Shown here in pieces: positions 5,729 to 39,449 of a stretch of 42,409 bases of DNA. Source of the DNA: a virus; the IMG/VR virus record IMGVR_UViG_3300008259_000321, positions 1 to 42,409 of that record. One strand, written 5' to 3'. The notes under the pieces were generated by a model. The model did not search any database and was not told the origin of the DNA. It worked only from the letters and a program-made list of their open reading frames with translations. The translations under genes and the position numbers were made by a program. The number at the start of each line of letters is the position of its first letter. Within the stretch, counting starts at the first letter, position 1.

Positions 5729-6212
5729 TCGATCGCACCGAATCCGGGGAACGCCTAGACCCCGGTCTGAGAGTGGGATTGAAGTACTGCTTCAGGGCAT
5801 TTAGCCCTGACCGCAGATCGGACAACGGGCTTTCCAACTCCCTCACCACCGTCAACCAGACGGCCCGGTACGCCTTCGGGTGGCAGCTCTTCAGCAGATA
5901 GCGATCTGCCGACAGCATGGCCAATGCCCGAGGCGCACGATCCCCCACGGACATCTGGATTCGCTCCAGTTGGATCGAGGAGGGGAACACACCGGAGCGA
6001 TGGGCTAGGGCATGGAAGGCCAGAGCCGCATCGTATTGATCGGTGTCGATAGCCTTGCGGATGTACAGCCGATCGATCAAATGCTGATCGACCACCTTCG
6101 CCCTGATGAAGAGGCCATCCTCGGACTCCAATCGAACTGTGTGCTTACGATGCAGTTCGTTGGAGCCGAGTTCGTTGGCGATCAGTTCCCTAGTTTTCGA
6201 TTGACCAGTCAA
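5670..6212 (-). CDS. hypothetical helical protein, possibly DUF6456/HTH-like
   Basis: 180 residues. The ATG lies inside the last codons of the primase-helicase gene (23-base overlap), so the two are coupled. The middle (VVDQHLIDRLYIRKAIDTDQ, then YDAALAFHALAHRSG, then RYLLKSCHPKAYRAVWLTVV) resembles helix-turn-helix-type DUF6456 proteins known as regulators in proteobacterial phages and prophages, but the match is from memory and partial. It is the last gene of the minus-strand replication unit and converges on the ribbon-helix-helix-like gene. Confidence 0.55.
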   Translation of the reverse strand: MTGQSKTRELIANELGSNELHRKHTVRLESEDGLFIRAKVVDQHLIDRLYIRKAIDTDQYDAALAFHALAHRSGVFPSSIQLERIQMSVGDRAPRALAMLSADRYLLKSCHPKAYRAVWLTVVRELESPLSDLRSGLNALKQYFNPTLRPGSRRSPDSVRSTIDQAEKALQAASLDPLLG

Positions 6213-7956
6213 AATTGTCGGGCTGCTTTATCGCATGTTGCCTATCCGACCATCTTGTGCTAGCGGAATCAAATTGTAAATACGCCATCCCCATTTTTCC
6301 AAGCCACTGCCAACGTGCTTTCCACACATGAGCCTCTGGCCCGTCTTCCGTGCGAGTGACAGTGAGACCCAAGTCTGCCTTGGCAAACCATGCCATCGAC
6401 TTAGCGACATCGAGTCCTGTCACTACCTTCTGACTGCGATCCATCGGCTTAGCAGGATGCGCTACGAAGAATACGTGGACGCCTGATTGCTTGGCGAACT
6501 GCTGCACTTTAGTCAGCATGCCGTTGATCGCATCTGTCTCCAGTCGATCTTTGGTATCCACTTCGATGAAGTTGTACGGGTCGATGACAAGGATACGAAC
6601 GCCCATGCGCATCACTGCCGCACGAGCAAACTCCAAGATGCCCTCGATGTCAGCCGGCGCACCGGCCATGTAGTCGAGCCACACGAAGTGATCCTGCATC
6701 CAAGTGAATGCAGCGTTACGCTCCTCGATCTGCATGCGAGGCTTGCCCATGCCATCGAAGAACGGCTTGCCGACAATCTTCGAGGCCAGCTGCGCCATGT
6801 GCAGATGCGGGGGCTTCTCGAAACTGCAGAAGGCTGTCTTCCATCCCTGCTGCTGCGCAGCGTTGAGGCAGACCTGATCGATGAGATCAGACTTACCACT
6901 GCCCGGGAAGCCTGTGACGATCGTCATCATGCCCTCGGAGATGCTCATGATCTGGTCGAGGGCGGGGATGCCAGTCGGGATGCCTTTGGTGTGGCCTTCG
7001 TTGTAGAGATTGTCGAACCGCTGGGCGTAGTGGTCAGCCCCGTAGAGGCCTGCCATCGGAATCGGCTTGGCCTTGCTGAACGCTTCGAGCAAACCATCAG
7101 TCCCAAATTGGGACATGGTTTCGTTAGCGTCTTTGCAAGGCAGCGTGATCTTCCAGCACTTGGCCTTGCCGATACGGCGAGACAGCTCCTCGATGAGGGC
7201 TTCTCCAGCCGGGTCTAAGTCAGGTGAGAAGTAGATGCGGCTTGTCGAATTGAGAAGCTCCTGCGCTTCCCAGACGTACGCAAAGCGACGATCGTCCATC
7301 GGATCGATCACGCCATCCTTGACTCGCTGCGGCGCACCGTTCGGTACGCTTACGACGTTGGCATCAACGCCTGCTGCCAGCCATGACAGCGCATCGATCT
7401 CGCCCTCACAGATCAGCAGTGGCTTGCCTGCCTCCACCTGATCGATGTTCCAGAAGCTATTGCAGACAGACTGCTGACTGAAGTGCTTATCGCCATCGGC
7501 ACTGCGCCACTTGACGGCGAATATCTTGCCGTTCTCTCGATACGGGAATCCCACTGCAGGCAGATTGCCAGCAGCAGCAAATCCCCATCGACCGAACACG
7601 CAGTACTTATCCGAGATAGATTCAGGGATGCCGCGAGACTTCAGATACTGAATGCCTTGCGCTTTATCTGTTTCATTCAAGTCAGCCAGCACCACTTCGG
7701 TCTTGGGCTGCTTGATAGATTGAACTTGCCGAATCGGCGTGACATTACTTTGAAAACGATCCATACCGCCTTGTACCCCACAGTGCCAGCAATTCCAACG
7801 AATGGATTGATTGTCCACGTAGACCGAAAGCGGTCTGTCGTGGCGATGTTTACTACGAGTGTGTTGACAAGCGGGACACTCCACTTTGTGTTGCCCGTTG
7901 TCTAGATGTTGGACTGCCCGTCCAATGAAGTCATCTTCGTCAATCATACTCAGCAT
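6190..7956 (-). CDS. bifunctional DNA primase-helicase, T7 gp4-like
   Basis: 588 residues, close to the 566 of T7 gp4. A zinc-binding primase domain has C27-x2-C30 and C56-x2-C59. The TOPRIM-like domain has ICEGEID at 182-188 followed by the FSPDLDPAG acidic motif. The helicase half has Walker A GFPGSGKS (349-356), a Walker B-like ILVIDPYNF and the H3-type FFVAHPAKP, typical of DnaB/RecA-fold replicative helicases. It would make primers and unwind DNA at the phage fork. AAAGGAGAAAG stands before the ATG. Hairpin-rich DNA and a candidate promoter lie upstream. Confidence 0.93.
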   Translation of the reverse strand: MLSMIDEDDFIGRAVQHLDNGQHKVECPACQHTRSKHRHDRPLSVYVDNQSIRWNCWHCGVQGGMDRFQSNVTPIRQVQSIKQPKTEVVLADLNETDKAQGIQYLKSRGIPESISDKYCVFGRWGFAAAGNLPAVGFPYRENGKIFAVKWRSADGDKHFSQQSVCNSFWNIDQVEAGKPLLICEGEIDALSWLAAGVDANVVSVPNGAPQRVKDGVIDPMDDRRFAYVWEAQELLNSTSRIYFSPDLDPAGEALIEELSRRIGKAKCWKITLPCKDANETMSQFGTDGLLEAFSKAKPIPMAGLYGADHYAQRFDNLYNEGHTKGIPTGIPALDQIMSISEGMMTIVTGFPGSGKSDLIDQVCLNAAQQQGWKTAFCSFEKPPHLHMAQLASKIVGKPFFDGMGKPRMQIEERNAAFTWMQDHFVWLDYMAGAPADIEGILEFARAAVMRMGVRILVIDPYNFIEVDTKDRLETDAINGMLTKVQQFAKQSGVHVFFVAHPAKPMDRSQKVVTGLDVAKSMAWFAKADLGLTVTRTEDGPEAHVWKARWQWLGKMGMAYLQFDSASTRWSDRQHAIKQPDNFDWSIEN

Positions 7957-7984
7957 GCGTCTTTCTCCTTTGTGCTGAGTGAAT

Positions 7985-8013
7985 ATTTTCTATAGGCCGA
8001 AGATTGTTTTCAA
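7985..8013 (-). promoter_or_regulatory. candidate sigma70-like promoter for the primase-helicase unit
   Basis: On the minus strand TTGAAA (8008-8013), a 17-base spacer and GAAAAT (7985-7990) precede the primase start at 7956, just downstream of the hairpin at 8039-8060. The -35 is five of six and the -10 four of six. The position between a likely terminator and the gene supports it. Confidence 0.4.
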
Positions 8014-8038
8014 ATACTTTATCTGTATCTACAAACGA

Positions 8039-8060
8039 CAAACCCCCTTGCGGGGGCTTG
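8039..8060 (-). terminator. probable intrinsic terminator, minus strand
   Basis: On the minus strand CAAGCCCCC, a GCAA loop and GGGGGTTTG form a 9-bp stem (one G-T pair) with a GNRA-type loop. The tail is only TTTGTC, so it is not a perfect intrinsic terminator. It would end transcripts coming from the RusA unit through the hairpin-rich region. Confidence 0.5.
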
Positions 8061-8063
8061 CGT

Positions 8064-8346
8064 CCTACTAGTGAAGTAGGTACTCTGGCTGTGGGAACCG
8101 AGTGAGTGGTAGGGTAGAGTAGTGATCTACTCCTGTCAAACACTCAATCCCCCTATCGTTCTGGTCGGGGAAACTACGCGCAGTTCGATTTGTATTCAGA
8201 CCGGGGCGGCAGGCCTCTGAACGCGCGGCGTTAGTCAGGAAGCGCGAACTGCAACAGGGCAACCTGTAAAAGTAGCTGACAGCGGGGTGGCTCCGTCAGT
8301 CATCCTCTGCACGATCGGACGTAGGCTTACTCCGTCTGTACCGTGC
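8064..8346. ncRNA. hairpin-dense intergenic region, candidate structured RNA or origin
   Basis: No convincing gene lies between 7957 and 8386. The stretch tiles with inverted repeats: CCTACT/AGTAGG (8064-8080), ACTC/GAGT (8082-8103), TGAGTG/CACTCA (8103-8146) enclosing GAGTAG/CTACTC (8117-8132), TCCCC/GGGGA (8148-8171), GCAGTTCG/CGAACTGC (8180-8252) enclosing TTCAGA/TCTGAA (8195-8221) and CGCGC/GCGCG (8222-8246), ACAGG-GCAA-CCTGT (8254-8267), CTGAC/GTCAG (8276-8299) and GCACG/CGTGC (8309-8346) with an inner stem. The nested group 8180-8252 is a three-way junction. The strand cannot be decided: flanking genes are minus, but the GCAA tetraloop at 8259 is on plus. It matches no RNA family I know. 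A replication origin beside the primase is the other reading. Confidence 0.5.
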
Positions 8347-8375
8347 GGAGTTCACCATCAGTCATCAGGTATATA

Positions 8376-8402
8376 CAGATATCTAGTTAATCTAGATACC
8401 TG
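8376..8402. repeat. 11-bp inverted repeat across a stop codon
   Basis: CAGATATCTAG (8376-8386) and CTAGATACCTG (8392-8402) flank TTAAT; one of the 11 pairs is a G-T. The repeat holds the stop codon of the gene ending at 8387. The CAGGTAT arm can alternatively pair with ATACCTG at the other side on the minus strand (8366-8372), so two exclusive folds are possible. There is no T-run, so it is not a simple terminator. Confidence 0.55.
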
Positions 8403-8635
8403 TTAATTAACTGCTTGGCTTTCTTACGACGGATTCCCGTAGGCAGTTTCATCATCTGAGCAATAAACTTTTTGATCTGGCTGGAATCCAGCTGGGCTTC
8501 CATACAAGCATGATCAAAGTCCTGACTGCCCACCCAGCGGATAGCATCCTGCCGAGTGTCAGTGTCGAGGTCAGTGAGGTCTTCTAATGCCTGGCAGATG
8601 ACCCGCCTTGCAATCCTAGTCGTTCCAAAAAACAC
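8387..8635 (-). CDS. small hypothetical helical protein downstream of RusA
   Basis: 82 residues from GTG at 8635, chosen because AAGGA precedes it by 8 bases and it gives a modest 20-base overlap with the RusA gene; longer in-frame readings exist to 8659. The sequence RRVICQALEDLTDLD, then DAIRWVGSQDFDHACMEAQL, then GIRRKKAKQLINRYL is helical and basic at the end. The A-I-R-W-x-x-S-x-D-F-x-x-x-C-x-x-A pattern occurs in small phage proteins of unknown role. Its stop lies in an inverted repeat. Confidence 0.6.
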   Translation of the reverse strand: MFFGTTRIARRVICQALEDLTDLDTDTRQDAIRWVGSQDFDHACMEAQLDSSQIKKFIAQMMKLPTGIRRKKAKQLINRYLD

Positions 8636-9038
8636 CGAGCTTGTCCTTGAATTGTTCACGAAACATATCCATCGAGCAGACGAACATCTCTGCCCTCGGA
8701 TTATCTCGATCTAACCCCCACATGACAAATCTACATTTCACTTGTCTATCGTTGGCGTATATACGGTCTTGCAGCAGATCGAGAATCAAGGACTCATCGA
8801 GGTCTGGCCGCCTGCTGGCGTAGTAGATTTTTGCCCCGAAGAACAGATCGCCTTCGAGCATGGAATCAAGAGCTGGCACTTGCAGCTTGAATGAGTCGCC
8901 GTAAGACAGCGCCTTCTTACTCTTGATGAGGCGGGGCTTGCCTCCGAAACTGACGAGCCTTCTTTGGTTGGCTTTGCTGGCGGGTTCGCCCAAGACAATT
9001 CCTTCCCAGAAATTGTTGACTTGAAATTTATTTTCCAT
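8616..9038 (-). CDS. rusA: RusA-family Holliday junction resolvase
   Basis: 140 residues. The N-terminal GEPASKANQRRLVSF is the family opening GxPxSKxN. The acidic cluster RRPDLDES (D79, D81), D87 and the later YANDRQVK (D97) match the metal-binding aspartates of RusA-type resolvases (about 120 residues in E. coli). The ending has the expected NPRAEMFVC strand. RusA proteins cut four-way DNA junctions as dimers, here probably resolving replication or recombination intermediates before packaging. ATG 9038 follows GGAGAAAG. It is divergent from the recombination module. Confidence 0.85.
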   Translation of the reverse strand: MENKFQVNNFWEGIVLGEPASKANQRRLVSFGGKPRLIKSKKALSYGDSFKLQVPALDSMLEGDLFFGAKIYYASRRPDLDESLILDLLQDRIYANDRQVKCRFVMWGLDRDNPRAEMFVCSMDMFREQFKDKLGVFWND

Positions 9039-11395: not shown

Positions 11396-11605
11396 ATGCA
11401 GAGCCATTACATCAAGCTAGTAGACGCGCTGCGTCTGATAGACAGAGACGTTAAAACGACAACGGAAAGGGAGTTCCTGCCAGTAGGGGAGCTAATGCAT
11501 GAAGCGGCGGAAACTATCGAGAAATTGGAAAAAAAGAACCAGGAAAAGACCAAAGAGATCGCAGAGCTTGAAGCTCTGCTCCGAGAAGCCTTCCCCATCC
11601 GATGA
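11396..11605 (+). CDS. small coiled-coil hypothetical protein
   Basis: 69 residues from ATG 11396 behind GGGAGGGGGAA. The second half (ETIEKLEKKNQEKTKEIAEL) is a clear heptad-type coiled coil and the first half is helical. No family recognised. It follows a terminator closely, so it depends on read-through or on a promoter I cannot see. Confidence 0.6.
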   Translation: MQSHYIKLVDALRLIDRDVKTTTEREFLPVGELMHEAAETIEKLEKKNQEKTKEIAELEALLREAFPIR

Positions 11606-38796: not shown

Positions 38797-39449
38797 CCTA
38801 CCGGCACTCTCGCTTGACCAGAACGATACGCATCTTGACGCTCCATGCCATCACCAAGTCTCTTGGCAAGTAGTACAGCCTCTTTGTACTTATTCTCGTA
38901 CTGGGTCATCATGTCGGGATCACCCTTTAAGTAGGTATAAGCCTCGACTAAAGAGCCATACAAAAGAACTGGATCAAAGTTATCACCAAGCCAACTTGTA
39001 CCTGACGTAACGATGGACTGTGGGTAGAAGAAATAATGCAGTTCCATTGAGTAAGCTGAATTTGGCGTTGGGCCTAGAATAAATGTCAGCTCATTGGCTT
39101 CATCAGACCTAGAACCAAACAGCGCGTAGTAGGCCGGAGTTCCGGTTGAGGCAGGGGTTGGATAAGACTCTCGAATAAAGTTCACATCTTTATTCAGAAG
39201 ATACTCATAGCTGCCATCAGCCAGTATCACCGCTAAAGAATACGGCGCTAAGAAGTCATTCGGGCATGCCAAGTATTTATTGCCAGACGAGGTTGTTCCA
39301 GTCACGTTCTTTCGAAGAGACGGGAACTGAATCGTATTGTAGATTCGCTTTTCGGCCTGCTGGACAAACGTAGGAATATTTGCCACAAACGAGGTTTCCG
39401 TCGTTTGGCAGTATTCCTGAATGGCTTGGCTCAACTGCGTGTAATTCAT
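38793..39449 (-). CDS. tail adaptor / head-tail connector protein, SU10 adaptor-like
   Basis: 218 residues from ATG 39449 behind GAGAGAG; a longer reading to 39485 lacks a site and would begin inside the preceding gene. NYTQLSQAIQEYCQTTETSF, then PTFVQQAEKRIYNTIQFPSL, then ELHYFFYPQSIVTSGTSWLG, then LLYGSLVEAYTYLKGDPDMM are features of phage adaptor proteins that join the portal to the short tail. Family assignment is from memory of SU10-type adaptors. Confidence 0.7.
   Translation of the reverse strand: MNYTQLSQAIQEYCQTTETSFVANIPTFVQQAEKRIYNTIQFPSLRKNVTGTTSSGNKYLACPNDFLAPYSLAVILADGSYEYLLNKDVNFIRESYPTPASTGTPAYYALFGSRSDEANELTFILGPTPNSAYSMELHYFFYPQSIVTSGTSWLGDNFDPVLLYGSLVEAYTYLKGDPDMMTQYENKYKEAVLLAKRLGDGMERQDAYRSGQARVPVG

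Follow-up and report, generated by a model that had tools for sequence, protein, structure and literature searches.

HEARO is an HNH endonuclease-associated RNA and ORF. Large structured RNAs such as ROOL and GOLLD are encoded by phages and prophages (PMC12286853), and HNH genes border exchanged segments near essential phage genes (PMC10448857). The sequence analysed here, referred to as the window, is the full 42,409 nucleotides of IMG/VR record IMGVR_UViG_3300008259_000321, from a freshwater phage, and it carries ahead of the primase-helicase gene an element of about 335 nt, termed family A. The likeness to HEARO is seen in one relative, L015, where the structured RNA lies beside an HNH gene; unlike HEARO, family A has no Rfam match, and the HNH protein of L015 is a small free-standing endonuclease whose gene is missing from two of the three family A copies. 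Like ROOL and GOLLD (PMC12286853), family A would be a phage-encoded, elaborate multi-helix non-coding RNA of unknown function, but it is about half their length or less, lies near a primase rather than in tRNA islands and matches no Rfam family. In homing endonuclease exchange in phages (PMC10448857) an HNH gene likewise flanks a swapped segment close to an essential gene, as in L015; here, however, a structured RNA is part of what is exchanged.

The Rfam 15 covariance models were searched at gathering and permissive thresholds, with group I and group II introns, HEARO, ROOL, GOLLD, tmRNA, RNase P, 6S and pRNA among the families. No match in the window reached the gathering score, and the best sub-threshold matches stood at 19.4 and 19.1 bits; an earlier note on this DNA had likewise seen no resemblance to group I introns, tmRNA, RNase P or 6S RNA. 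ARAGORN detected no tRNA or tmRNA in the element and no tRNAs in the window, blastn gave no match of family A in phage (INPHARED) or plasmid (PLSDB) records, and the open-licence papers searched held no description of the element. A short motif of the family A plus strand, GUCGG-N7-ACGCGCAG, is similar to one in Betaproteobacteria-1 (RF02932); a credible match to that family is lacking (none in the window; 10.5 bits, E 0.5, in L015, with a gathering score of 49.4), and matches below the cut-off occur in 11 of 14 control genomes.

The dense hairpin region that the earlier note had placed upstream of the primase is largely real: positions 8034-8367 of the window form a discrete, conserved, gene-free element. 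It lies between the primase-helicase gene (phrog_239; 6190-7956, minus strand) and the gene of a 90-aa protein of unknown family (8387-8659, minus strand), which holds the position of a 115-aa gene in the family B phages described below and is followed by a RusA-like resolvase gene (8616-9038, minus strand; weak profile matches). The limits first proposed, 8039-8402, cover nearly all of the element, but the conserved part excludes an AT-rich palindrome (8376-8402) at the end of the 90-aa gene that includes its stop codon. The judgement that the region holds no credible gene stands, as both open reading frames that cross it (7940-8143 and 8068-8262, both minus strand) are disrupted by indels in the homologues. 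The folding-energy check also came out as anticipated, with z scores of -4.89 (minus) and -4.39 (plus) for 8039-8402 against dinucleotide shuffles, none of 100 being as good. However, the entire genome exceeds shuffled sequence in local folding, so that energy by itself says little: tiles of 334 nt across the window have a mean z of -1.25 (sd 1.36), several reach -4 and the best go beyond it. Against this shifted background the trimmed element reaches a z of about -3, and energy is therefore insufficient for the case, which is carried by conservation and covariation.

Relatives were fetched by a primase-alignment scan of IMG/VR. Family A is present at the same locus in L018 (1101-1436) and L015 (3590-3928) and absent from the primase-aligned relatives L013, L014 and L110, and in three pattern scans of IMG/VR it was restricted to the phages of the window, L018 and L015, the pattern matches L096, L097 and L106-L109 being rejected as chance. 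Over ungapped columns the window element is identical to that of L018 at 307 of 330 positions (93%) and to that of L015 at 291 of 332 (88%), and L018 and L015 agree at 281 of 331; the coding DNA around the element is about 73-75% identical, below the 88-93% of the element itself. The primases of L018 and L015 are 76% and 88% identical to that of the window, so the RNA pair of window and L018 is closer than that of window and L015 despite the more distant L018 primase, which suggests exchange between backbones. The region from the element to the primase start diverges among the homologues. Elsewhere in the window, at 2132/2133, the near-identical contigs L002 and L003 carry about 119 extra bases, either a deletion in the window or an insertion in those contigs.

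Compensatory changes, which the earlier note had proposed to look for, are present in the homologues, although covariation is thin because it draws on three distinct homologues only (window, L018 and L015). The plus-strand RNAalifold fold has 108 pairs with 97.5% of cells paired and seven pairs changed on both sides (0 of 500 shuffles), compared with 104 pairs, 96.8% of cells paired and six such pairs (3 of 500 shuffles) on the minus strand. The covariation score (0.167 vs 0.115), the number of further pair types (21 vs 13), the RNAalifold covariation term (-2.8 vs 0.01) and the z score of the consensus fold against column shuffles (-5.2 vs -4.3; 0 of 200) all stand on the side of the plus strand, and a hand-made minus model with the P1 helix performs much like the minus RNAalifold fold. 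A minus-strand transcript, as first proposed, is possible, but an early reading on that strand was demoted to a rival once the plus fold scored better. The structural evidence, with both folds built from one set of three sequences, modestly favours the plus strand, opposite to the primase, and leaves the strand unsettled. As in non-coding RNAs of the ROOL/GOLLD kind, several helices are conserved and show compensatory changes in a stretch free of open reading frames, here in three sequences only.

In the plus model two hairpins precede a closed domain. H1 (8039-8060) is a G+C-rich hairpin, CAAACCCCC-TTGC-GGGGGCTTG, whose stem is invariant in the three homologues, and in H2 (8062-8083) one pair changes from A-U to G-C on both sides. 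The closing helix P1 would join 8086-8098 to 8350-8364 by 13 pairs, a shorter version being possible on the minus strand. Within it lie the long hairpin P4 (8100-8145), with one pair changed from A-U to U-A on both sides, the hairpin P5 (8150-8170; CCCC...GGGG), every base of which is invariant, and P6 (8177-8185 with 8274-8284), which encloses P7 (8186-8203), P8/9 (8209-8252) and P10 (8254-8267); two pairs of P8/9 and one of P10 have changed on both sides. The hairpin P11 (8285-8305) and the long hairpin P12/P13 (8306-8349) follow, so that P6 and P11, P11 and P12, and P12 and P1 adjoin without linkers. Many of the inverted-repeat stems listed in the earlier note are real by their double-sided changes; its three-way junction fails, since the closing stem GCAGTTCG/CGAACTGC (8181-8188 with 8245-8252) cannot form intact in either homologue, and the plus model gives its left arm another partner, 8274-8284. 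Read on the minus strand, box 1, GATGACTGATGG (8355-8366), and box 2, GATGACTGACGG (8293-8304), have changed in parallel in L015, where both are TGACCTTTGG; a search of the phage's own genome for antisense targets of the two boxes gave none that was convincing.

The family A element is a swappable cassette, gained or lost as a block between otherwise similar phages. On either flank L015 matches L014 at 95% identity, and the two differ exactly at the element slot, which holds 137 bp of AT-rich DNA in L014 and, in L015, 738 bp with an HNH endonuclease gene (phrog_3322, E 2.4e-28; phrog_3118) and the RNA. The similarity breaks off where the small upstream gene ends and, on the other side, at the ribosome-binding region of the primase. 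The HNH gene begins a few bases past the element, on the strand for which the fold scores better. Inspection of the sequence finds in the complement of the L015 box 1, within the equivalent of the P1 3' arm, an AAAGG that may serve as the Shine-Dalgarno sequence of this gene, whose start lies about 10 nt further on.

A second structured RNA, family B, occupies the same slot in relatives whose primases are about 40% identical to that of the window. Its members lie upstream of the primase in L061, L066 (degenerate), L070, L071, L073, L074, L120, L122 and L125, and a partial match in a different phage (L113 2090-2379, minus strand) lies after an HNH gene and is followed by a 105-aa gene whose matches to replication proteins are weak; HNH genes are near family B in L113, and also in L122. 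With 21 pairs changed on both sides and a covariation score of 0.526 against 0.310 in shuffles, family B is better supported than family A. The two families share the slot order RusA, small protein, RNA and primase, a similar length and a patchy distribution, but show no sequence or covariance-model cross-match (R2, R1/R3), and family B folds better on the primase strand in all members except L113. Family B has no Rfam match at gathering score, its 5' domain resembling RF02932 below threshold (31.7 and 31.6 bits in L070 and L120; gathering score 49.4), and a short motif, GUCGG-N-ACG-GCAG, common to the family A plus strand and L070/L074 is a lead only. In the Synechococcus phage MinM2 the 741 nt that separate an HNH gene from the primase (L006 3190-3930) carry no annotated gene and exceed shuffles in folding (plus z -3.6, minus z -2.7); neither the family A nor the family B models find this stretch. 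In place of family A, L016 holds in this slot, at about 518-735, a third GC-rich non-coding element with no homologue found and unremarkable folding. As a separate observation, L120 has at 6436-6486 (plus strand) a sub-threshold Rfam match to STnc390 (30.5 bits), in essence a hairpin that resembles a terminator and has a T run.

That the family A element is a functional RNA is probable. The interpretation of the earlier note as an unclassified structured RNA is supported by the compensatory changes, a conservation above that of coding DNA and the empty searches of Rfam, INPHARED and PLSDB; its other proposal, a replication origin, is not supported. In the best reading, to which a probability of roughly 0.5 is given, the element encodes a new accessory phage non-coding RNA, about 335 nt long, whose folded form is what functions. 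It would be transcribed, probably from the plus strand opposite to the primase, and would fold after two hairpins into a closed multi-helix domain in which P1 encloses P4 to P13. The RNA may act in trans, alone or with a protein, in the replication phase of infection, and the element would spread as a cassette when phages recombine at this site, an HNH homing-type endonuclease gene travelling with it in one relative. Whether it is trans-acting or the leader of a neighbouring gene is judged an even choice, and its fixed position ahead of replication genes would suit a cis role too.

In the cis reading, which is unlikely although the strongest of the alternatives, the minus-strand 5' RNA of the primase-helicase gene would carry the element as a leader, its 3' hairpin at 8039-8060 attenuating transcription into the primase or insulating against it, and a ligand or protein shifting the fold. 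All family A and nearly all family B copies lie directly upstream of the primase-helicase gene, the copy in L113, the one exception, precedes a gene that has weak matches to replication proteins, and the invariant H1 stem would be a terminator stem on the minus strand. However, for family A the plus strand gives the better-supported fold, the element is lacking in phages whose primases are about 88% identical, and the stretch from element to primase start diverges. The minus-strand terminator proposed earlier retains its strong stem but has a poor T tail, TTTGTCGTTTG, and a terminator scan of the H1 unit was silent in the window and L018 and made a call in L015. For the fresh minus-strand promoter proposed nearby, the promoter scan gave no promoter above chance, the weak promoter-like site between element and primase (7985-8013, minus strand) being one of a number at chance level.

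Slightly less likely still is a role within a mobile HNH unit, as leader or as partner: a plus-strand RNA would run straight into the HNH gene and control it or move with it. The arrangement in L015, with its possible Shine-Dalgarno in the P1 3' arm, the excess-folding DNA directly before the HNH start in MinM2 and the HNH genes near family B argue for such a unit, which has to take the HNH gene as lost in the window and L018. Against it, two of the three family A copies are without the gene, the HNH gene of L113 is upstream of the RNA and not downstream, and HNH genes are in any case common near essential phage genes (PMC10448857).

That the element acts as structured DNA, be it a replication origin or something else that forms hairpins on single strands, is improbable. 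Its setting in the replication module, with the RusA-like gene on one side, the primase on the other and AT-rich palindromes nearby, and inverted repeats that fold on both strands would suit such a role; the long invariant loop sequences better suit an RNA. No GC-skew switch is found at the element in the window (cumulative maximum at 11573) or in a relative's 59-kb contig (maximum at 33949, RNA at 38986-39324), and the maxima lie 3-5 kb away, which together with the cassette swap, the element being wholly missing from a phage 95% identical on both flanks, argues against an essential origin. A functionless remnant intergenic stretch, its repeats owed to the folding bias that gives some genome tiles z scores of -4, is the least probable of all in view of conservation above coding DNA, compensated pairs and retention in two distantly related backbones.

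Taken together, a conserved folding element at this locus is confirmed, with its limits, junction stem and terminator corrected. As a speculative extension, families A and B may belong to a larger set of structured RNAs that replace one another in one dedicated slot ahead of the replication genes of a large environmental phage group, with HNH homing exchanging them as RNA cassettes that act on replication or host defence. Two RNA families are added outside Rfam, A in the window and B, possibly related to RF02932, in its relatives, and a locus with near-identical flanks that exchanges structured RNAs provides a natural presence/absence comparison for RNA function.
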